Assembly (NCBI GenBank): GCA_949743265.1
Contig: CATJSX010000096.1
Location: 1 to 46,133, forward strand
Source: an uncultured Peptococcaceae bacterium
GTDB lineage: Bacteria; Bacillota; Peptococcia; Peptococcales; Peptococcaceae
DNA: 46,133 nucleotides
Direction of reading: 5' to 3'
Shown: positions 13,627 through 28,567 of the stretch, piece after piece
How positions within the stretch are numbered: the stretch's first letter is position 1
Layout: every line of letters begins with the position of its first letter
The notes under the pieces: model-generated
Databases searched by the model: none
Seen by the model: only the letters and a program-made list of their open reading frames with translations
What the model was told of the DNA's origin: nothing
Position numbers and translations under genes: made by a program

Positions 13627-14241
13627 ATGAAAAAGGTAATCTGCATTCTACTCATTACTATGCTTTGCATCTGCCTGCTTTCAGGTTGTAATACAAAACC
13701 AACAGAGGAAGCGCTTGTCGTATACTCTTTCAGCGGAGAAAATGAAATGTTTTCAATTTCGAATGGCGTTATTGTACTGACACCTGCACAAGATATTTTT
13801 TATGGTGGAAATTTTGACGGAGAAATAGCAGACATTCGTGCTTATTCCATGACTTTCTATATCCAATCTGGTAATGACAACATAGTTTTGCTTTCCAACA
13901 GCGTAACGGATATGACAGGCGGAACGATAGCTATTGCTGGTGAAACAGGAAAAGTATCCGGAGATATCCTTAAAAGAGCAAAGGCTGATGATTTGCAGAA
14001 CAACCTTTACTTTGAGCTAAAAACTACCAATTTGAACGGCAAAGAAAACACATACCAGTTACAATTAGCAGTAACAGATGTCACAAAAGCACAAGACAGG
14101 AATTATCAGGGGGGATTTCACCCAAAAGATGAAATCCCCCCTGATAATTCCTGTCTTGCATTCAAGTTGATACGCATTTTTGCGATACAAATCTTTGCTC
14201 TTTTCAGTGCTCAGATAATAGTTTTTCTCGCTTCATTCTGA
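13627..14241 (+). CDS. Predicted lipoprotein of unknown function with hairpin-altered C-terminus
   Basis: The 204-aa product begins with a lipoprotein signal peptide: basic MKK, a hydrophobic stretch, and the lipobox LLSGC with Cys21 as the lipidation site. The mature part (YSFSGENEMFSISNGVIVLTP in spirit, residues 34-55, then repeated beta-strand patterns) looks like an all-beta secreted domain that I cannot name. From about residue 156 the frame runs through a perfect 29-bp inverted repeat and then a hydrophobic tail rich in Phe and Ile. These last 50 residues probably do not belong to the ancestral protein. AGAGGAAC precedes the ATG. The gene sits in an accessory-looking patch between holA and a minus-strand gene, and no terminator follows other than the hairpin. 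Confidence 0.6.
   Translation: MKKVICILLITMLCICLLSGCNTKPTEEALVVYSFSGENEMFSISNGVIVLTPAQDIFYGGNFDGEIADIRAYSMTFYIQSGNDNIVLLSNSVTDMTGGTIAIAGETGKVSGDILKRAKADDLQNNLYFELKTTNLNGKENTYQLQLAVTDVTKAQDRNYQGGFHPKDEIPPDNSCLAFKLIRIFAIQIFALFSAQIIVFLASF
14092..14158. repeat. Perfect 29-bp inverted repeat (hairpin) inside the 3' end of the lipoprotein gene
   Basis: Arms 14092-14120 and 14130-14158 match perfectly over 29 bp and enclose a 9-nt loop. They contain G6/C6 runs. No T tract follows, so it is not a typical intrinsic terminator. It could be an insertion scar, a miniature element or a very stable mRNA 3' end. Confidence 0.9.
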
Positions 14242-18240: not shown

Positions 18241-18281
18241 AAAAAACAACGATGAGCTTTTAGTGCTCATCGTTATTTTTT
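18241..18281. terminator. Bidirectional terminator between recO and chemotaxis operons
   Basis: The 10-bp stem AACGATGAGC/GCTCATCGTT (18248-18257, 18265-18274) is flanked by A6 on the left and T7 on the right. It can therefore end both the plus-strand recO transcript and the minus-strand chemotaxis transcript. Confidence 0.85.
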
Positions 18282-18287
18282 TATTTT

Positions 18288-19526
18288 CTATTCTGCATGA
18301 GTTAATTTATCCCATGTTTCCGAAACAATTTCAATAGATTCCAGATATTTACGCGCAACAACTCGTGAATCCATGCCTAATTTTTGGGCAAATTCATTCA
18401 CAGCGCTCCAGTTACCTTGTTCGTATGCCAGCACCAAATTAAGCAAATCCCCCATAGCTCCACTGCCATTTAATAAAGCATTTTTGATATTATCTTCAAA
18501 CGGTAACTCAGACAGTAATTTTTCCATTGATGTTTTCATCAACACATCAAGAGTAGAAAACATCCCTACTAAATAGCATCCTTCATGCTGATTGTTTAAA
18601 TTAGGGCATTCTTTTGCTAATTCTTGACACAATGCGCCGCGCATAAAAGATAGCCGTAATAATTCGCTGGATTTAGCGCCGGAAATATTTTCAAAACTCA
18701 ACAAGTACAACCAATCTCTCAGCTGGCGGACACCAATAACGACAACAGCTTGCTTGACTGTAGAAACTTTGTTGCGTAAAGCAAAATAGGCTGAATTAAC
18801 CAAACGCAATAACTTATAAGTCATAGCAACATCACTACTAATAATATCAGCAATAGCGTCAGAATCAGGATATTCCACCGACATCTCTTTAATTAAACGG
18901 AAGAAATTAGTTTGATTATATTCACTGCTATGATCATTTTCTTCTATAGTTACATCAGATTCGGCAAAATAAGCACCTTGTACTTTTCTAAAACCAAAAG
19001 TTTTAGCACGCTCCAGATCCTTTGACGAATCAACGCCGAAAGCAATCATTGTTTTTCCAAAACTTTCACAGACAGCTTTAATGCTGTTCAATTCTTGATC
19101 AGAAATTGTTCTTAGATCAAGAATAACATGATCCACCATATTCAATAAATTAAGCGACCGTTGATTAAAAGCAAAATTATTTAAGGCAAATTGATACCCT
19201 TGATTTCTCAAAACTGCAATCTTATCCATCAAAGAATTTTGAATAGCGATTTCATCATCAACACGAATAACTAATTTATCTTTGCTGAATAAACTAGCGA
19301 TATTTTCATTAAGCAGTTGATCAGTAAATGTAATATATGCCGGTTTCCCCTGCATCATCTGTGTGCCTTCCGTACCGGTAAATAATTGAGAAATTGCTCT
19401 AGCAACTGTTTCATTAGTAGCTTCTTCGCCAGCTACTGCCGCTTTTTCTCGATAAAGCAGTGCATAGCCTTCAACATTTTCTGTTTCTATATCAAAAATA
19501 GGCTGGCACACTAAAAATATAGACAT
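18288..19526 (-). CDS. Degenerate EAL plus HDOD domain protein
   Basis: The 412-aa protein pairs an N-terminal EAL-like domain (about 1-190) with a C-terminal HDOD domain (about 195-400: DIISSDVAMTYKLLRLVNSAYF, then VIGVRQLRDWLYLL), as in the YuxH family. The EAL signature is replaced by GYALLYR, so the catalytic Glu is gone and c-di-GMP hydrolysis is unlikely. A sensing or scaffolding role is more plausible. HDOD proteins often sit in motility and signalling operons. Start: ATG at 19526 after GGAGGGG; the longer frame adds a non-conserved basic stretch. Last gene of the chemotaxis operon, 25 nt after the coiled-coil gene. Confidence 0.82.
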   Translation of the reverse strand: MSIFLVCQPIFDIETENVEGYALLYREKAAVAGEEATNETVARAISQLFTGTEGTQMMQGKPAYITFTDQLLNENIASLFSKDKLVIRVDDEIAIQNSLMDKIAVLRNQGYQFALNNFAFNQRSLNLLNMVDHVILDLRTISDQELNSIKAVCESFGKTMIAFGVDSSKDLERAKTFGFRKVQGAYFAESDVTIEENDHSSEYNQTNFFRLIKEMSVEYPDSDAIADIISSDVAMTYKLLRLVNSAYFALRNKVSTVKQAVVVIGVRQLRDWLYLLSFENISGAKSSELLRLSFMRGALCQELAKECPNLNNQHEGCYLVGMFSTLDVLMKTSMEKLLSELPFEDNIKNALLNGSGAMGDLLNLVLAYEQGNWSAVNEFAQKLGMDSRVVARKYLESIEIVSETWDKLTHAE

Positions 19527-19551
19527 TATCGTCCCCTCCAGTGATGTTTTA

Positions 19552-20826
19552 TTATTTACTTCTTGGCGTTTTCGGCGGTTTTTCACCATAAATACAAGCA
19601 GTCAATACATATGCCAGCTGCTGATTGGTTTCCCTAAGTGCTTCCACACGCCATTTACCGCTAGAATGATCCAACACAATCTCTACGCGAAATTTACCGT
19701 TTTTTTCAGCCGCATCAAGACTCTCCTGCAAAGATGTAATCATAGCCGCATCAAGTTCTGACTGTTCATAATGACCCGCCACCACTTGAACTAAATTCTC
19801 TTTGCGAAATTCCACCAAAGCGTCTCTTAACGCTTTGCCTAAATCATAAACCACAAAATCAGTACTGATAGTCGCTTTTTCACCACTAATCACCGGCTCG
19901 CCCACGGTAAACTCAATATCATGAACTTTACTTTGCATCGTCGGCGCTAGAGATTGATAAAAAGGATCATTGGCAATATTTTCGCTGACAAAATCAATAT
20001 CGACTTCGCCATAAGTTGCCATTTTCGCCGTATTATCAGCAACAAATGCCTGCAAATACCGTTCCACAGCAACTTCTGGTTTAGGATGCTGATAGAAATA
20101 CACACCTGCACCGCCAGCACTTCCAACCAACCACAAAACCACAAATAGCAATAAAAATTTCTTTTTAGGATCCATTGGTGGGTGTTGTTGTGCTTTAATA
20201 GCTTTTTGTGCCGCTTTTTTCTCTTTGTCCTTAATTTTTTTCTGTGCTGCTTTTTGTTTTTGCAGCAATTTTTTCTGTTTAGCCGCTTTCTTAGCTTCTT
20301 GTCGACGAATTTTTTCTTCTGCGCGCCATTGAGGATCTTTGCGCTTTGCTTTTTCCTCTTGCTTTTGCAGCTTCTTTTTAGCATTAGCCTGCTCTTTAGC
20401 TATTTTAGCTTTAGCTCTATTTTGAGCATTTTTTAGCTTAAGATCCATCTTTTTCTGCTTTTGTTCTGCTTGCCATTGAGGATCTTTGCGTTGCAACTTT
20501 TCAGCAGTCTTTTTTTCAAGCGCTTTTTGTTTATCTTTTTGACGCTTGACTTTATCTTTTTGTTTTTGCAAACGAGATTTTTCTTTTTGTTGCAATTTTT
20601 TTTGTTGCGCTAAGGCTTTTTCCTTAATTTTTTTCTGTTTTTGTTCTGCCTGCCATTTAGGATCTTTACGCTTAGCCTTTTCTTTTAAACGTTCTTCTTT
20701 CTGCTTTTGTTTTTGCGCTCTTTTCTTTTCTTTATCAGCTAATTGTTTTTGCTTGCGCTGCATTTTCTGCTCAAGTTTTTTTGCTTTTTCCTTTGCTTTT
20801 TCTGCATTATTACGAATGACAACCAC
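19552..20826 (-). CDS. Basic Lys/Gln-rich coiled-coil membrane protein with three KDPxWxAE repeats
   Basis: The 424-aa product has three parts. Residues 1-215 are an extremely Lys/Gln/Glu/Ala-rich predicted helix or coiled coil. It contains three copies of RKDPxWxAE at 53-61, 113-121 and 162-170. A single membrane helix (about 224-245) follows, and then an extracytoplasmic domain (about 250-410) with the alpha/beta pattern of NTF2-like or DUF4878-type lipoprotein domains. Predicted topology is N-in, C-out. I do not recognise the full-length family. It lies between an M15 peptidase-like gene and an EAL/HDOD gene at the end of cheA-W-R-B. The start is uncertain: the only standard start codon, GTG at 20826, overlaps the GAAGGTGG site. 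Confidence 0.75.
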   Translation of the reverse strand: MVVIRNNAEKAKEKAKKLEQKMQRKQKQLADKEKKRAQKQKQKEERLKEKAKRKDPKWQAEQKQKKIKEKALAQQKKLQQKEKSRLQKQKDKVKRQKDKQKALEKKTAEKLQRKDPQWQAEQKQKKMDLKLKNAQNRAKAKIAKEQANAKKKLQKQEEKAKRKDPQWRAEEKIRRQEAKKAAKQKKLLQKQKAAQKKIKDKEKKAAQKAIKAQQHPPMDPKKKFLLLFVVLWLVGSAGGAGVYFYQHPKPEVAVERYLQAFVADNTAKMATYGEVDIDFVSENIANDPFYQSLAPTMQSKVHDIEFTVGEPVISGEKATISTDFVVYDLGKALRDALVEFRKENLVQVVAGHYEQSELDAAMITSLQESLDAAEKNGKFRVEIVLDHSSGKWRVEALRETNQQLAYVLTACIYGEKPPKTPRSK

Positions 20827-20864
20827 CTTCTATCAGCAACATTCCTTTAATCAGTAAAATACTC

Positions 20865-21764
20865 CTACTCTTTCATGTTCATGGCGAAATATTCTTCCAG
20901 CGTTGCTATCCCTTCTTCATGCATACGCCTTGCCACATCTTCTCCTACATATGTAATATGTCCTGGATTATACTGATAGCCAGTAATTGCTGTTTTATTG
21001 GCAGGATAGCGCAGGATAAAGCCATACTGCCAACCATTATCTTTCAACCAAAGAAAAGTATCGCTATATTCAAAATAACCATTCTCCTTTGGCGCATAAA
21101 CGTCTAATGCACAACCCGTTTGGTGTTCGCTATAACCCGCTCTAGCTTTTCGCTTATCAGCTGCTTCGGTTGAAAATTGTTTAACTGTTTCTGCATAAAT
21201 TGTTTTCTGTTCCTCAAAGCCAACATAAGCCGCTTCAATACCAATAGTATATCCCTTAGACTGAGCCGCTTGATTTAACAGGTCAAAGGCTACCTTCGTT
21301 TCAGCGGTTACTTGATGAGTTTCGTCAAGAAGAACCAAATTATTCGGTATATAATTTTCTGGCAGATGATTATATTTGTTCACCAAAATAGGAAAACTAG
21401 CGGTATCCGTAATCTCTTTGGTATTTTCATAAAAAGGTCTATCTAAACCAATGTTAACCTGAAGTTTAACCGTCTCTTCATCCAGCTCAGGATGGAGTTT
21501 GCCGTATACTTCATAACGTTTCTTCCTATCATCCGAAAGCGATTGATAAGCGTCTTTCGTTTCATCTTCCTTTTCTTTTGTTAATACCTCTTCATTTTTA
21601 TCAAACCAAGGGATTTTGGGTATATCAATAGATAAAGCAGGCAGCGAAGGCAAAGAAATTTTTTTATTCAACAGACTATACGATACTGTTGCTGAAACAA
21701 CTAAAATGATGCAAGCAAACAATACTAATATTATTTTTTGCAAAATTTCTTTCATATCCTTCAC
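20865..21764 (-). CDS. VanY/M15B D,D-carboxypeptidase-like protein lacking the catalytic Glu
   Basis: The 299-aa protein is anchored by an N-terminal membrane helix (about 8-28) and ends in an M15B (VanY/LdcB-type) domain. Zinc ligands are His214 and Asp221 in SEHQTGCALDV and His269. In active members the last ligand sits in ExWH (E-P-W-H), but here it reads N266-P-G-H269, so the general-base Glu and the Trp are both replaced. The fold and zinc site probably persist while hydrolysis may not. The alternative is an unusual active site. It begins 19 nt after cheB, so it is part of the chemotaxis transcript, which is not typical for a wall enzyme. Confidence 0.82.
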   Translation of the reverse strand: MKDMKEILQKIILVLFACIILVVSATVSYSLLNKKISLPSLPALSIDIPKIPWFDKNEEVLTKEKEDETKDAYQSLSDDRKKRYEVYGKLHPELDEETVKLQVNIGLDRPFYENTKEITDTASFPILVNKYNHLPENYIPNNLVLLDETHQVTAETKVAFDLLNQAAQSKGYTIGIEAAYVGFEEQKTIYAETVKQFSTEAADKRKARAGYSEHQTGCALDVYAPKENGYFEYSDTFLWLKDNGWQYGFILRYPANKTAITGYQYNPGHITYVGEDVARRMHEEGIATLEEYFAMNMKE

Positions 21765-21783: not shown

Positions 21784-22923
21784 TTAACAACCCTTTAATC
21801 TTAAATACTGCAAAATCTCTGCAGCAATATTTTCAAGCGCCGCTTGTTTAAGCACAGCACCCCTATTAAACGCTTCCATTGGCATACCATATACTACAGA
21901 AGATTCTTTATCCTGACCGATAGTATAAGCGCCGCTCTCTTTCATTGCCAACAACCCATTAGCACCGTCAGCACCCATACCTGTCATGATAACACCTACG
22001 CCGTCCCGACCTACCGCCGTAGCCATTGATTGAAATAACACATCAACGGAAGGACAATGACCGCTAACTTTTTCTCCTGGCGCACACTTTACAGCGTAGC
22101 CATTTCCCCGTTTAACCACTTGCATTTGTACACCTCCAGGCGCTATCAAAACAAGGCCGGGACGGATCACATCATTATCAGCAGCTTCTTTAACCTCCAA
22201 CGCACAAATTCTATTCATACGCTCAGCAAACATTTTCGTAAATCCCGGAGGCATATGTTGCGTAATGACAATTCCGGGCATTTGCGCCGGTAAACGGCTT
22301 ACAACGCTAAGGATCGCTTCTGTACCGCCAGTAGAAGCGCCTAAAGCAATAACAAAACGAGCGTGACCTAACTTATTATTTACTAATTTAGGCAACAAAG
22401 CAGTTGTTGACTTTGTTTTCGCCAATTCATTTACTGTAGGAGTCGTCGTTTTTTTGTTCTCTATTACTGGTTTCGGCGCTTTTATACTATTAGTATTTGC
22501 TAAATTTACCCGTGCCTTGGGCAATTTAGCAACTGCTGCGATTTTAAGTTTGTTGGCTAAATCTCGGAAGAAATTATTCATTTCTTCCGATTGTTTACTA
22601 TCTGGTTTTTTTACAAAATCAACCGCTCCAGCAGCAAGCGTATCAAATACACGCATATTTAACGAACTAACCATGATGACCGGCAAAGGCGAAGGTCCCT
22701 GCATTAGCTGCTTTAAAAAGTCAATGCCATTCATTTTAGGCATTTCTACGTCAAGCGTTAAAACGTCAGGTTTCAATTTTTGTATCTTAATACTTGCATC
22801 TTCAGCATCAACAGCGGTTCCAACGATCTCTAAAAATTCATACGGTTTCAGTCCGCTGGAAAGAATTTCACGAAAAAAAATCGAATCATCAACGATCAAA
22901 ACTTTTATTCTTTTATTTCCCAA
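21784..22923 (-). CDS. cheB: Chemotaxis response regulator protein-glutamate methylesterase
   Basis: CheB removes methyl groups from chemoreceptors (and can deamidate Gln) to reset sensitivity. The 379-aa protein has an N-terminal receiver with Asp12, Asp13 and phospho-acceptor Asp58 (LDVEMPKMNG), and a linker of about 55 residues rich in Lys/Thr/Ala. The esterase domain carries the Ser197 (GASTGG), His223 (TQHMPPGF) and Asp319 (GMGADG) triad. All catalytic residues are present. It starts at TTG, 2 nt after the cheR stop, with AAAGGTGG upstream. CheA-dependent phosphorylation is the expected control. Confidence 0.96.
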   Translation of the reverse strand: MGNKRIKVLIVDDSIFFREILSSGLKPYEFLEIVGTAVDAEDASIKIQKLKPDVLTLDVEMPKMNGIDFLKQLMQGPSPLPVIMVSSLNMRVFDTLAAGAVDFVKKPDSKQSEEMNNFFRDLANKLKIAAVAKLPKARVNLANTNSIKAPKPVIENKKTTTPTVNELAKTKSTTALLPKLVNNKLGHARFVIALGASTGGTEAILSVVSRLPAQMPGIVITQHMPPGFTKMFAERMNRICALEVKEAADNDVIRPGLVLIAPGGVQMQVVKRGNGYAVKCAPGEKVSGHCPSVDVLFQSMATAVGRDGVGVIMTGMGADGANGLLAMKESGAYTIGQDKESSVVYGMPMEAFNRGAVLKQAALENIAAEILQYLRLKGC

Positions 22924-22925
22924 CG

Positions 22926-23741
22926 TTATTTTTCCACCTTTTTATAAATTGCAGGCATCACATACTCAAACTTAGTTGTTCCTCTAGGAATTGTTTCAGA
23001 ATGTCCGATAAACAAATACCCTCCCGGCTCTAAAACATCATAAAATTTATTGATCAACTTTGTTCTTGTATCTTGATCAAAGTAAATCATGACGTTTCGG
23101 CAAAAAATCAACTGAAATTTCTTCAAAAAGCGGAAGTTTTCCATCAGATTTAACGTTTTAAATTCAACTTCTTTACGCAGTTTATCAATAATCTGAACGT
23201 TATCTTTATCAACCTGTTTGAAATACTGATTACGCCATGCTATTGGTACATCTTTAATCATATCTACCGGATAAATACCCGCTCTGCCTTTCGCCAAAAC
23301 TGATTCCGAAATATCTGTAGCAGTGATTCGCGTATCCCAACTACTCTTTTTAGCGCCAAAATAATCATATAAAGTCATCACTGTTGTATAGGCTTCAGCA
23401 CCTGCCGAACAACCTGCACTCCAAATATGAAACACTTTTTGTAAATGCGTCTTTTCATATTCAGGCAACACTGTGCTTTTTAAATACTCAAAATGCTTAG
23501 GTTCCCGCATAAAAAACGTGTGATTCGTTGTTACTTTATTTAACAAAAGCGTTACTTCTGTTCCTGTTCTATCTCTTTTTAAAATATTGATATAATCAGT
23601 GAAAGTATTGCATTTCTTCTCTGCCAAAACACTAGCTAAACGACCTTCGATTAAAACGCGTTTTTTTTCTAAATCAATCCCATACTGGGTTTTAATGTAA
23701 CGCACCAGTTCGTTAAATTCATTATCATTGATTCGTATCAA
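22926..23741 (-). CDS. cheR: Chemotaxis protein methyltransferase
   Basis: CheR methylates receptor glutamates using S-adenosylmethionine. The 271-aa protein has the small N-terminal helical domain and the SAM-binding domain. Markers are TTNHTFFMREPKHF, WSAGCSAGAEAYT, ATDISESVLAKGR and FCRNVMIYFD. The SAM motif differs slightly from the usual GEEPYS, having GAEAYT. Start TTG at 23741 with AAAGGAAG a few nt upstream; followed after 2 nt by cheB. Confidence 0.95.
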   Translation of the reverse strand: MIRINDNEFNELVRYIKTQYGIDLEKKRVLIEGRLASVLAEKKCNTFTDYINILKRDRTGTEVTLLLNKVTTNHTFFMREPKHFEYLKSTVLPEYEKTHLQKVFHIWSAGCSAGAEAYTTVMTLYDYFGAKKSSWDTRITATDISESVLAKGRAGIYPVDMIKDVPIAWRNQYFKQVDKDNVQIIDKLRKEVEFKTLNLMENFRFLKKFQLIFCRNVMIYFDQDTRTKLINKFYDVLEPGGYLFIGHSETIPRGTTKFEYVMPAIYKKVEK

Positions 23742-23771: not shown

Positions 23772-24230
23772 TTAGTCCTTCAAAACCTTTTCACAATCCA
23801 AAATCAACTGAAACTCTTTGCCACGTTTCGCTACACCCTTTAAAAAATTGCTGCTATAATCCCAATCTGCTTGCGGTGGTTCAGAAATCGCCGTATCAGG
23901 CAGATTTTCCACTTCATCGACACCGTCAACAATAAGTCCAATCGTCATTTCTTCTACTTCTACAACAATGATACAGGTCTTTTTGTCAAAAGGACGAAAC
24001 GCTTTATTAAAACGTAATCGCATATCAATAATAGGCAAAACTTTACCTCTGAGATTGATAATGCCGCTAATATATGAAGGTACTTTCGGCACCTTAGTAA
24101 TATTTTGTACGCCTATAATCTCTAGCACATAACGAATCTCTACGCCAAAACACTGCTCGTCGAGAAAAAAAGTCAGATACTTTCCTTTTAGCAGATCGGA
24201 CGCTTCATTGGTTTGTATATTTTCGCTCAT
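23772..24230 (-). CDS. cheW: Chemotaxis coupling protein
   Basis: CheW links chemoreceptors to CheA. The 152-aa protein is a single CheW domain: FFLDEQCFGVEIRYVLEI at the start, then VPSYISGIINLRGKVLPIIDMRLRF and a GLIVDGVDEV segment, all typical. It lies 37 nt after cheA and 30 nt before cheR in one operon. Confidence 0.95.
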   Translation of the reverse strand: MSENIQTNEASDLLKGKYLTFFLDEQCFGVEIRYVLEIIGVQNITKVPKVPSYISGIINLRGKVLPIIDMRLRFNKAFRPFDKKTCIIVVEVEEMTIGLIVDGVDEVENLPDTAISEPPQADWDYSSNFLKGVAKRGKEFQLILDCEKVLKD

Positions 24231-24267: not shown

Positions 24268-26658
24268 TCATTTCAGCAGATTAGCCACATCCAAAATCAA
24301 GCTAATATTGCCGTCGCCTAAAATGGTACAACCGGTAATGCCGTAACTATGCACATCGTAATTATTTAAATAAGCGGGCAACGGTTTAACTACTACTTGA
24401 TATTGTCCCAATAAACTATCAACAAAAATGCAAGCCGCTTTATTATTAACTTCAACCAAAATCAAAATACCTTCTTCAATATCAGTAACGTCAGTATCCA
24501 ATTCATAAATCTGATGAAGTCTAACGATAGAATAACATTCTCCGCGAATCATAACCATTTGATTGCCGTTGATATCTTCTGTCAAATCTTCTTTGCGAAT
24601 CTTAAAGGACTGGCTGATAACCTTGATAGGAATGGTAAAAATTTCTGTCCCGACAGCTACCACCATAGCGTCCATAATAGCTAAGGTTAACGGGATTTTA
24701 AAGACAGTCGACATCCCTTTGCCTTTCTGACTTTCAATATGAATCGTACCGCCGACTTTCTCGATATTCTGTTTAACAACGTCCATACCTACGCCACGAC
24801 CTGAAAACTCGGTAACTTGATCCTTTGTCGAAAAACCGGGCATCATCAAAAGCATATAAGCTTCACGATCGGAATACTCGCTGGGCGCTTTGGTCAAAAA
24901 TCCTTTATCTTGAGCTTTTTGCAGCAATTTCTCTCGATCAAGCCCTTTACCATCATCGCTAACAGTGATGATTATCTCTCCACCAGTATTTTCAGCGGAA
25001 AGCGTAACTTTACCTCGCGGATCTTTGCCTGCTTGAATACGTTCTTCAAGACTTTCAATACCATGATCCATTGAATTACGCACCAAATGCATTAGCGGAT
25101 CGCCAATGCTATCGACAATAGTTTTGTCCACTTCTGTTTCTTCACCGATCAAAATTAAATCGACATCTTTACCTAATTTTTTATTCATATCCCGCACAAT
25201 ACGATTCATCTTTTGAAACGCGCCCGAAACCGATACCATGCGAATAGACATAGAAACATCTTGCAAATCATTGGTCAGTTTCCGCAACTGTCTAGCTGCT
25301 TTAGTAAAGTTCTCCAATTCCAATCCTTGTAAATCAGGACTAGAAGTCACCATTGATTCAGTAATGACCAACTCGCCGACTAAATCCATTAACGTGTCTA
25401 ATTTATTCAAATTAACACTGATTAAACTTTGTTTGATTGCTTTATGACTACCATCGCCTTCGGCAGGTGCTGCTTTTGTTTCTGTCGACGCCGATTTTTC
25501 TGCTTTAGGTTCCTGTGCTTTAGTCGGTTCTTTTTCCGCCGCTACTGCAACTGGCGCTGGTTTACTTTCAGTTGGAGTTGCCTTCGTAGTATCAGCTTCA
25601 GCCGTTTTCACCGAACCATTACTTTGACCGCCTTCAACTGCAAATGACTTAATGTGCAACGCATTCTCAATAACTTCAAGAATCTCTGGTACTTTACTTT
25701 CATCTTCAACGATTAATAAGAAACCTTCATTGATAATTTGCTGAGCCGCTTCACTATTGTTTTCTAATTCTTCGGGAACGGAAACAATCGGCGGATAAAT
25801 TTCAGCGATTTGCTGTAATAACATGAAAGCACGCATATTTTCCATTTGACAGTCATCTTCAAAAAAGACACGAATCATTTGACCGCCATGCTGTTTGTCG
25901 ACTAATTCGCCGCCATTAACTGTAAATCCTTTTATATGAGATTCTTTATGCAAAAAATCAATAATCTGATTTAAATCATATGAAGCTGGTATGGTCATCT
26001 TAAACCCTGATTCCAAAATTTGTTGCGTTGCATTGGCATTGCCTGCCAACTCCGCTGGTTCATGAACGACATCCGAACAAATCTCCCGCAGCTTATTAAC
26101 CAATACCATAGCTCGAATATTTTCCATCTGACAATCGTCTTCAAAGTGGACAACAATGATATTATCGCCATTAGGCGCAGTACTTTTATTTACAGTCGTT
26201 GAAGCATCCGCCGCACTGGATACATCGTCGGCAGGCGTCTCAACGGCAACGCCTTTTAAACGATTGAGAAAATCTGTTACTTTATTTTCCAAAAAAGAAA
26301 TATCTTCACAAAGAGCATCGCCAGCTTCAACTTTTTCTACCTCTTCACGCAAAAAATCGTTAGCTTGAAACACCAAAGTAAACAGCGGTTCATTATGCTC
26401 TTTATCAATACCATTGGTACGGATATACGCAAATAAATCTTCTATGACATGGGCTACTTTAGCAATTTTGTCAAACTCCATCATTGCTGAGGACCCTTTA
26501 ATCGTATGCATGATTCTAAAAATGGAATTGATTTCTTCACTATTAAATTCATTGCTCTTTTCTGCGCCTAACAAAATCTGATCTAATTCCTCTAATAAAG
26601 AATTAGTTTCATATAGATACATCTCAGCCATTGAGTCATTGATTGTATAATCTGCCAT
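24268..26658 (-). CDS. cheA: Chemotaxis histidine kinase CheA with duplicated P2-like domain
   Basis: CheA autophosphorylates on a P1 histidine and passes phosphate to CheY and CheB. In the 796-aa protein, P1 has His51 in MHTIKGSS. Two homologous P2-like domains follow (about 168-250 and 262-344, each with FEDDCQMEN(I/M)RA and ending in FxV(N/E)GG). A linker rich in Ala/Glu/Lys/Thr runs from 346 to 405, then P3 dimerisation, the P4 ATPase (VRNSMDHGIE, DDGKGLD, GRGVGMDVV) and the P5 CheW-like regulatory domain. The start is the ATG at 26658 (ATG at 26661 is the alternative), after GGGTGG. First gene of a seven-gene minus-strand operon. Confidence 0.95.
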   Translation of the reverse strand: MADYTINDSMAEMYLYETNSLLEELDQILLGAEKSNEFNSEEINSIFRIMHTIKGSSAMMEFDKIAKVAHVIEDLFAYIRTNGIDKEHNEPLFTLVFQANDFLREEVEKVEAGDALCEDISFLENKVTDFLNRLKGVAVETPADDVSSAADASTTVNKSTAPNGDNIIVVHFEDDCQMENIRAMVLVNKLREICSDVVHEPAELAGNANATQQILESGFKMTIPASYDLNQIIDFLHKESHIKGFTVNGGELVDKQHGGQMIRVFFEDDCQMENMRAFMLLQQIAEIYPPIVSVPEELENNSEAAQQIINEGFLLIVEDESKVPEILEVIENALHIKSFAVEGGQSNGSVKTAEADTTKATPTESKPAPVAVAAEKEPTKAQEPKAEKSASTETKAAPAEGDGSHKAIKQSLISVNLNKLDTLMDLVGELVITESMVTSSPDLQGLELENFTKAARQLRKLTNDLQDVSMSIRMVSVSGAFQKMNRIVRDMNKKLGKDVDLILIGEETEVDKTIVDSIGDPLMHLVRNSMDHGIESLEERIQAGKDPRGKVTLSAENTGGEIIITVSDDGKGLDREKLLQKAQDKGFLTKAPSEYSDREAYMLLMMPGFSTKDQVTEFSGRGVGMDVVKQNIEKVGGTIHIESQKGKGMSTVFKIPLTLAIMDAMVVAVGTEIFTIPIKVISQSFKIRKEDLTEDINGNQMVMIRGECYSIVRLHQIYELDTDVTDIEEGILILVEVNNKAACIFVDSLLGQYQVVVKPLPAYLNNYDVHSYGITGCTILGDGNISLILDVANLLK

Positions 26659-26802
26659 CATACCACCCACTATTCTTAAATTAATTCGCACTACTCATAT
26701 ATTCAGTCGTACAAATTTCAAAAAACTTAAGTATTATATTCAATTTCCTACAATTTCACCGATTTATATTATATTATCAACTTACACGAGAGGATCTTTG
26801 TT

Positions 26803-28233
26803 ATGACAAATCACATACAGCTTAATCCCCCGCCATTGCCTAAAGAGCCCATACCAGCGCGCAATGACATCATCACCAATCCGCATCATCAGGATGTTTC
26901 CGACGCTTCCAAAGTCGTCAAAACCAATGTTAAGGATGATTATAACCAAAATCAGCCGCAAGAACAAAACTTTGATTTCAACAGCCAGTCTATTCGGCAA
27001 AGGGTGCTCAAGCTGCTCTTAAATAATGAATCAGCCACTCAAGCGGTTAAACGTCTTTTATTAGGCAATGAAGCCCTATTTAATACCAACGCTCTTGACA
27101 GCGCCAAATGGTCACAGTTTTTAGAGCAGTTTTTTCTTTCTGCCGAAGAAATGCCAACTTATTTGAAAGAGCAACTGAGCAATCATTCTCTATTTCAAGG
27201 CAGTTTCTTTGATTTCTTGCGTAACATATTATCAAAATACGGCAATAATCCCGCTATCAAAAACAGCTTGCTCAATGTCTTAAAAACAATGGAGCTATTT
27301 CAAAATCGCCAAAATACATCGGCATTTTTGATTCATAACTTAAACAACCTCTTGCCTTTTTTGAATGCTGATAATCAACGGTCAATATTAGACGCTATCA
27401 ATTATTTACAGCAGAATATGCTGAACGATACGGCTCTGCCTAATGATTTGCAGCGTTCTATTATGGATGCTTTGAGCCAAACTGCATCAAAAAATCGCGA
27501 TAATAGCAATCTGCGCAATATGATCATGCAGGCTATCCATAATCTCTCAAGACTAGACAACAGCGATAAAGCCAGTCTCTTGAGAAGCATTGAAAATTTT
27601 ACCACCACCTTACAGCAATACAGTAAATTAACTGTTGAGCAAAAAGACGCGCTAATGGCAAGCGTCCAGCATCAACTAAATAATGCGGAAGCAACTAACC
27701 ATTCTGCTACTGATCGTATTTTATCCGCATTGGATTTTGGACTTTCTGGCAGCAATCCTTTGTCTATGCAGTTAGCTTCCAGCGGCATTTTAAGCGCATT
27801 ATTATTAAATCACAGCGTTTTGTTACCTTTGATTTACGGTTTTATCCCATTAAAATTGGATAATACGTATCTCTTTTCTGAACTTTGGGCGCACGTTGAA
27901 GATGATGAGGATACATCAAACGGCAAAGACCATAAAAACGATTATTCCGAAAAGAAAAAGACTGTTGTTTTTTTCACTATGGAAAGTTCCGTATTTGGTT
28001 ACATGCAAGGAACACTAGAGAGTCGTCAAAAAAATATTGATCTCCAACTAGAAGCGCCAGATGCAGCCGTCAAAATTCTAAATACGATGAAAGAGCACCT
28101 TGCTCCAACAATAGAAGAACTAGGCTATAAGCTCAATCAAGTGGATATTGTTCCTTTGGAAGTACGTAAGCACTTTATTGACGTTTTCGGCAAAAAAATT
28201 CTAAAGGAGGCTTCTTTAAATGTCCGAGTTTAA
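26803..28233 (+). CDS. YlqG/FliK-like protein paired with an FlhB C-terminal-domain protein
   Basis: This 476-aa protein has a Pro/Asn-rich N-terminus (1-65), a long helical middle rich in Leu, Asn and Ser (65-340), and a conserved-looking C-terminus (about 385-470). The C-terminus contains GYMQGTLESRQKNIDLQLEA and LGYKLNQVDIVPLEVR, resembling the FliK-like C-terminal domain. Its overlap with an FlhB-C-domain gene matches the B. subtilis ylqG-ylqH arrangement. A role in flagellar export or hook control is inferred from this context. An AGAGGAT site precedes the ATG. The divergent gap to cheA (about 140 nt) holds only a weak SigD-like ACCGATTT at 26758-26765. Confidence 0.6.
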   Translation: MTNHIQLNPPPLPKEPIPARNDIITNPHHQDVSDASKVVKTNVKDDYNQNQPQEQNFDFNSQSIRQRVLKLLLNNESATQAVKRLLLGNEALFNTNALDSAKWSQFLEQFFLSAEEMPTYLKEQLSNHSLFQGSFFDFLRNILSKYGNNPAIKNSLLNVLKTMELFQNRQNTSAFLIHNLNNLLPFLNADNQRSILDAINYLQQNMLNDTALPNDLQRSIMDALSQTASKNRDNSNLRNMIMQAIHNLSRLDNSDKASLLRSIENFTTTLQQYSKLTVEQKDALMASVQHQLNNAEATNHSATDRILSALDFGLSGSNPLSMQLASSGILSALLLNHSVLLPLIYGFIPLKLDNTYLFSELWAHVEDDEDTSNGKDHKNDYSEKKKTVVFFTMESSVFGYMQGTLESRQKNIDLQLEAPDAAVKILNTMKEHLAPTIEELGYKLNQVDIVPLEVRKHFIDVFGKKILKEASLNVRV

Positions 28234-28567
28234 AAAACAATTAGATACTCAGATGGCAGTTGCCTTAAAATACAATCCTGACAAAGATAATGCTCCTGTC
28301 GTTATTGCCGCTGGCAACGGCTATCTAGCACAAAAAATTATTGAGTTAGCCAACAAAAATAACGTACCCGTTTATCAAGACAATTCCACAGCATCATTGC
28401 TTTCCAGCTTTGAATTAGGCTCAGAAATTCCCGTAGAACTCTATCAAGTAATCGCTGAAATCTACGCTTATATCGTCAAAGCCGGTCATGAATTGCAAAA
28501 TACTATTGATTTTACGATGTTAGAAGCTGACAGTTTTGAACATCTTGATCCCGAAACACTGCGATAA
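28220..28567 (+). CDS. Stand-alone FlhB cytoplasmic-domain homologue (YlqH-like)
   Basis: The 115-aa protein aligns with the part of FlhB after its NPTH autocleavage site. MAVALKYNPDKDNAPVV parallels FAVALKYQEESNSAPVV in this window's own FlhB, and IPVELYQVIAEIYAYI parallels its last helix. It lacks the membrane domain and the cleavage motif. In B. subtilis such proteins can partly substitute for the FlhB C-terminal half; function here is inferred. It overlaps the upstream gene by 14 nt and has an AAAGGAGG site, so translation is coupled. Confidence 0.82.
   Translation: MSEFKKQLDTQMAVALKYNPDKDNAPVVIAAGNGYLAQKIIELANKNNVPVYQDNSTASLLSSFELGSEIPVELYQVIAEIYAYIVKAGHELQNTIDFTMLEADSFEHLDPETLR

Follow-up and report, generated by a model that had tools for sequence, protein, structure and literature searches.

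Three genes at the end of a che operon in a Peptococcaceae bacterium: a degenerate EAL-HDOD protein, a coiled-coil membrane protein and an apparent pseudo-carboxypeptidase

Why should a chemotaxis operon end in three genes for envelope and signaling proteins, and do these genes belong to chemotaxis? The question is raised by a 46,133-nucleotide (nt) stretch of DNA from an uncultured Peptococcaceae bacterium (assembly GCA_949743265.1, contig CATJSX010000096.1, positions 1 to 46,133), which we call the window. It forms contig 96 of the draft genome G000 (3.0 Mb) and carries a flagellar and chemotaxis cluster. On the minus strand, cheA, cheW, cheR and cheB are followed by genes for an M15 protein, a coiled-coil protein (CC) and a protein with an EAL and an HDOD domain (EAL-HDOD), and all seven genes are co-directional. 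The junctions measure 19 nt (cheB-M15), 38 nt (M15-CC) and 25 nt (CC-EAL-HDOD), and when the open reading frames of the window were re-examined, the gene coordinates and gaps of an initial annotation proved correct. Scanning these three junctions revealed no minus-strand terminator-like site. The operon ends at a strong terminator hairpin (18248-18274, strand not assigned; folding energy -24.3 kcal/mol, z -7.4) that has a T-run, is T-rich on both strands and is possibly shared with the convergent gene recO. Judged from sequence, the tail appears to form an accessory stretch of this operon whose parts differ in age: an old EAL-HDOD, a rare but conserved partner CC, and a recent dead M15 protein.

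The EAL-HDOD protein (18288-19526, minus strand) contains 412 residues with an isoelectric point (pI) of 4.8, and its start codon is the ATG at 19526, preceded by GGAGG. Pfam places an EAL domain (residues 68-190, 3.5e-12) before an HDOD domain (residues 209-329, 5.5e-22) in one chain. The structural model resembles EAL structures (best match at E 6.5e-9), and the HDOD domain is matched by the structure of Cj0248 (1vqr). Alignment with EAL enzymes of known structure and with better-preserved relatives shows that the active site is degenerate: E is replaced by A (YALLYR), N by T (ITF), DD by NN (LNNF), K by I (ILD) and E by F (AFGV). The metal motif xxDDF thus reads ALNNF (19167-19187), while the active-site Q and the Arg of the EAL motif are retained. 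The che-linked relatives in the alignment are also degenerate, but less so than the window copy. These substitutions suggest that EAL-HDOD is non-catalytic, most active-site residues being gone, in agreement with the dead EAL domain recognized in the initial annotation.

EAL-HDOD is a member of a degenerate-EAL subfamily that is tied to chemotaxis and flagellar loci across Oscillospirales-type Clostridia. Among 80 named EAL-HDOD loci, 38 have at least two of cheA, cheR, cheB, cheC, cheD, a fliK-like gene and flhB-C (a gene for the C-terminal domain of FlhB) within 10 kb, and some of the other 42 end at contig ends. An FtsA/PilM-like gene adjoins EAL-HDOD in 27 of the 80. One locus with EAL-HDOD beside che genes (L141) belongs to a culturable relative, Marasmitruncus massiliensis. 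In the EAL-HDOD tree, the window protein is sister to a che-linked Gracilibacteraceae clade (SH-aLRT 97), and linkage to che genes clusters on the tree (8 label changes, compared with 30.6 in shuffles), a clustering that near relatives make easier. CheA and/or FlhA are present in 30 of the 30 EAL-HDOD genomes checked, linked and unlinked alike, a raw count that takes no account of how common flagella are in such groups and is therefore supportive only. Within 100 relatives, 14 have a strong EAL-HDOD match and all 14 have CheB, compared with 72 of all 100 (p about 0.007, with no correction for kinship).

Several further neighbors were observed at EAL-HDOD or che loci. In several Oscillospiraceae-type genomes (L170, L172, L203, L208 and similar loci), a GTPase gene and recO stand upstream of EAL-HDOD; the window also has recO beside EAL-HDOD, in convergent orientation. 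In L073 (6865-9198) and L239 (8659-10683), the ATPase encoded beside EAL-HDOD is of the FtsA/PilM/MreB type and carries additional domains at its C-terminus. In class relatives that lack a strong EAL-HDOD match, che genes are flanked by genes for FapA and PilZ proteins (L119, 7532-9118 and 15507-16193).

How does EAL-HDOD compare with known proteins? YuxH carries an HDOD domain, and EAL-HDOD proteins of the YuxH/PdeH type, which we take to be COG3434, resemble the window protein in domain order (EAL, then HDOD) and in length (about 410 residues). YuxH/PdeH is described as a motility-affecting c-di-GMP (cyclic di-GMP) phosphodiesterase in Bacillus (PMC12029170, PMC5422440), whereas proteins of the che-linked subfamily lack catalytic residues of the EAL domain (most of them in the window protein) and are encoded in chemotaxis and flagellar loci. 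HDOD proteins also change how Pseudomonas, Xanthomonas and Campylobacter swim (PMC11813219, PMC11004494). The HDOD motility regulators GsmR, Cj0248, SadB and PSPTO_4229 share the HDOD domain, the swimming effect being known for theirs, but these two reports do not present them as fused to an EAL domain and encoded with a CC partner in a che operon (PMC11004494, PMC11813219). The earlier view that the three genes have no known place in chemotaxis is therefore partly wrong, since published HDOD proteins change motility (PMC11004494, PMC11813219). A search of open-licence papers for EAL-HDOD proteins found no work on such proteins in chemotaxis operons.

The CC protein (19552-20826, minus strand) consists of a cationic K/Q-rich coiled-coil arm, one transmembrane helix and an acidic C-terminal domain, as indicated by sequence, models and homologues. 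Residues 1-222 contain 72 K and 13 R against 29 D and E (pI 10.5), which bears out the membrane protein with a very basic arm proposed before. The single transmembrane helix spans residues 224-245 (20092-20157), a hydrophobic stretch that aligns across all homologues, and by the positive-inside rule the basic arm would be cytoplasmic. Three DPxW repeats were found in the sequence: RKDPKWQAEQ (20641-20670), RKDPQWQAEQ (20461-20490) and RKDPQWRAEE (20314-20343). These repeats are retained in the CC homologues of Gracilibacteraceae and of a second genome of the same family as the window genome (G004), and the cationic arm and acidic ectodomain are likewise conserved. Pfam and NCBIfam scans of CC gave no match above cut-off; a DUF5105 match in the G004 homologue falls below the Pfam cut-off.

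The C-terminal domain (pI 4.95) probably adopts an NTF2-like fold, as suggested by structural matches to the AlphaFold prediction, which drew on six sequences and has a mean pLDDT of 79.9 in this part. Its top structural match is the lipoprotein YcdA (4r4g; VIA Z 10.5, root-mean-square deviation 4.9, 172 aligned residues), and comparisons with the NTF2-like domains of penicillin-binding proteins give Z values of about 9; a Foldseek search with the C-terminal model returned no match at E < 0.001. The predicted fold would be common to YcdA/DUF5105 and other NTF2-like ectodomains, but in CC a transmembrane helix and a cationic coiled coil with DPxW repeats take the place of a lipoprotein signal.

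Homologues that share the layout of CC were found in G004, away from che genes, and in metagenome-assembled genomes (MAGs) of Gracilibacteraceae, at che genes. A search through the class (46 genomes) and the phylum (398 genomes) gave, outside G000 and G004, only weak matches to the C-terminal domain. In all five Gracilibacteraceae loci (five MAGs), CC adjoins EAL-HDOD, which is followed by an FtsA-like ATPase, and four of the five also show cheB or further che operon genes. L134 and L137 contain the complete run cheA-cheW-cheR-cheB-cheW2-CC-EAL-HDOD-FtsA-like, with the same flank as in the window (cheC-cheD, and flhB-C and a fliK-like gene on the opposite strand). The remaining loci give partial views, with sequence that starts within cheA in L138, at cheB in L135 and within CC in L136. 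Compared with L134 and L137, M15 occupies the position of cheW2 in the window, and the FtsA-like gene of the window genome is unlinked, on contig 48. The second cheW between cheB and CC (L134, 7790-8293) is also seen in L135, L137 and L138.

Do the three genes form a unit? The triplet M15-CC-EAL-HDOD was found in no other genome searched and is unique to the window genome. The three genes differ in how far their homologues stay with che genes: EAL-HDOD does so in the 38 loci mentioned above, CC is mixed (five loci paired with EAL-HDOD, G004 unlinked), and M15 does not, its closest relatives lying at a different locus. The proposal of an undescribed module thus holds for CC with EAL-HDOD, accompanied by the FtsA/PilM-like ATPase elsewhere, and not for the triplet. 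Since CC and EAL-HDOD stand at the end of the che operon in other bacteria too, we regard both as probably genuine components of motility control that have yet to be described.

The M15 gene (20865-21764, minus strand; the true start may be the ATG at 21755) encodes a VanY/LdcB-type domain following an N-terminal membrane helix. The match to Pfam VanY (PF02557) is strong (4.5e-28, 98.1 bits against a curated cut-off of 25), and the nearest solved structures are 4ox3 (YodJ) and 4jid. In the alignment, the motif SxHxxGxAxD is retained as SEHQTGCALD (21102-21131). EPWH is replaced by NPGH (20958-20969), in which the catalytic Glu has become Asn and the Trp is gone but the zinc His remains, so all three zinc ligands (H, D, H) are present. 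SGYRSYxxQ is replaced by AAYVGFEEQ (21207-21233), with loss of the conserved Ser and change of the substrate Arg of SxYR to Val. The catalytic Glu and the substrate Arg are present in every other full-length M15 relative aligned, including Gracilibacteraceae copies and the Oscillospirales copies adjoining flhB-C. Sequencing error at the site is unlikely, because the changes E to N, W to G and R to V each require about two base changes. The protein shares its domain, zinc ligands and, by sequence, membrane anchor with the M15B carboxypeptidases VanY, LdcB and YodJ, but the catalytic Glu and the substrate Arg are missing from it, and its gene sits in a che operon. It therefore looks like a membrane-anchored pseudoenzyme; the initial annotation had likewise called it inactive. 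That annotation also called it a wall-binding zinc domain: the zinc ligands are indeed retained, while wall binding is an inference that the sequence itself does not show. That the protein is still active with altered specificity and remodels the wall around the flagellar motor is very unlikely, for despite its retained domain and zinc ligands and the intact M15 copies adjoining flhB-C and EAL-HDOD in Oscillospirales, Glu has become Asn and the substrate Arg Val, unlike in the aligned relatives.

Where did this protein come from? In six genomes of the same family, an M15 homologue adjoins a gene for a putative purine-nucleoside phosphorylase (pnp), with coaX nearby (both names come from reading the sequences, not from a family scan), and these sister proteins are intact carboxypeptidases. 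The tree places the window protein as sister to the pnp-linked enzymes (support 90/91), on a branch of 1.12 compared with 0.1-0.2 for these sisters, and the pnp locus of the window genome itself has no M15 gene. Because of this grouping, the long branch and the empty pnp locus, the M15 protein is most likely a lineage-specific recent recruit from a housekeeping-type carboxypeptidase, whose catalytic function would have disappeared during or after its move to the che operon. At six other loci, too, M15 genes occur in the EAL-HDOD/flhB-C neighborhood, and the Oscillospirales copies beside flhB-C are intact. A grouping of the window protein with the flhB-C-linked Oscillospirales proteins was rejected (p-AU 0.0027, approximately unbiased test; long branches are involved). 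The entry of M15 into this neighborhood is a recurrence through independent arrivals, not common descent.

We favor, with about as much confidence as doubt, a reading in which EAL-HDOD is a non-catalytic chemosensory or flagellar adaptor, CC is the lineage-specific protein that partners it and spans the membrane, and M15 is a lineage-added pseudoenzyme. EAL-HDOD would most likely be cytoplasmic and read a nucleotide or protein signal, with c-di-GMP as the obvious candidate, and would act on the chemosensory or flagellar machinery. The basic DPxW-repeat arm of CC could bind the acidic EAL-HDOD or CheA/CheW. Direct contact between EAL-HDOD and CC is plausible because their charges are opposite (pI 4.8 and, for the arm, 10.5), which is not proof. 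The acidic NTF2-like domain of CC would lie outside the membrane, where the M15 pseudoenzyme may bind stem peptides of the wall and so provide wall contact for the pair.

Several points weigh against this reading. A Ruminococcus/Oscillospiraceae clade keeps EAL-HDOD away from che genes, so the linkage is not obligatory. G004, which is 85% complete and has a che operon, lacks a strong EAL-HDOD match, and its CC is not che-linked; that che operon has no triplet and instead ends with a phosphodiesterase-like gene. CC was found in seven genomes only. The decay of M15 could simply mean that the gene is eroding and being lost, and the putative wall binding of the pseudo-peptidase is argued from what is known of its family.

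The three genes might instead be co-transcribed with cheA-cheB merely for timing or through chance insertion, with general envelope or c-di-GMP roles and no direct role in chemotaxis. The large clade with EAL-HDOD off che loci fits such hitch-hiking, as do the M15 relatives at pnp, the CC gene of G004 near unrelated genes, and the restriction of the triplet to the window genome. However, the linkage of EAL-HDOD to che genes recurs across divergent clades, CC and EAL-HDOD recur jointly in Gracilibacteraceae, and every EAL-HDOD genome checked has CheA and/or FlhA. We therefore consider hitch-hiking possible but rather unlikely.

Could the tail couple motility to the cell wall, by array anchoring, polar placement or motor braking as the initial annotation supposed, for instance as a wall-anchored landmark similar to HubP/FimV? 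CC and M15 would then hold chemosensory arrays or flagella at sites of the wall, with EAL-HDOD gating the tether. Such a Gram-positive-type landmark would be built of unrelated parts: the CC arm would hold the array or motor via EAL-HDOD, the zinc-binding pseudo-carboxypeptidase would fix the outside domain of CC to the wall, and the EAL-HDOD/FtsA-like pair would gate on c-di-GMP. Like HubP/FimV, which is linked to chemotaxis, flagella and wall remodeling, CC has one transmembrane helix and a large charged cytoplasmic region beside its outside domain (PMC8789113, PMC12918733), and a D-Ala-peptidase-fold protein is encoded beside it. Vibrio HubP, the nearest functional analogue for a wall-linked organizer, recruits DacB, a carboxypeptidase, to the pole together with MotV and MotW, which act in motility (PMC8789113), and M15 genes independently joined the flhB-C/EAL-HDOD neighborhood in Oscillospirales. 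On the other hand, Pfam scans of CC detected neither LysM nor another domain that binds the wall, its arm is basic whereas that of HubP is acidic, no homology was detected, and the Gracilibacteraceae loci with CC and EAL-HDOD have no M15 there. Membership of CC in the HubP/FimV family was rejected on the first two of these grounds, and the landmark built of unrelated parts seems doubtful to us, less probable than hitch-hiking.

The rest of the operon consists of the four che genes. The product of cheA, the first gene (24268-26691, minus strand), is a histidine kinase in which P2 stretches occur twice (Pfam P2, Hpt, H-kinase_dim, HATPase_c and CheW). It is followed on the same strand by cheW (23772-24230; Pfam CheW 8.9e-36), cheR (22926-23741; CheR 2.6e-61) and cheB (21784-22923; CheB_methylest 4.9e-61, Response_reg 7.2e-21). 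Divergent from cheA are a FliK-like gene and a gene with only the FlhB C-terminal domain (26803-28567, plus strand), the latter matching TIGR00789 flhB_rel under the cut-off; this pair adjoins cheA in most che-linked EAL-HDOD homologue loci. A small lipoprotein-like gene (13627-14241, plus strand) has no family match above cut-off, and an Rfam scan of the window found no RNA family.

For specialists, the EAL-HDOD/CC pair is of more interest than the triplet. A cell-wall peptidase family has joined the EAL-HDOD neighborhood more than once, in one case as an apparently dead enzyme. The degenerate EAL-HDOD subfamily and its recurrent neighbors (CC, the FtsA/PilM-like ATPase, PilZ and M15) may represent an overlooked accessory of chemotaxis and flagellar loci in many Clostridia.

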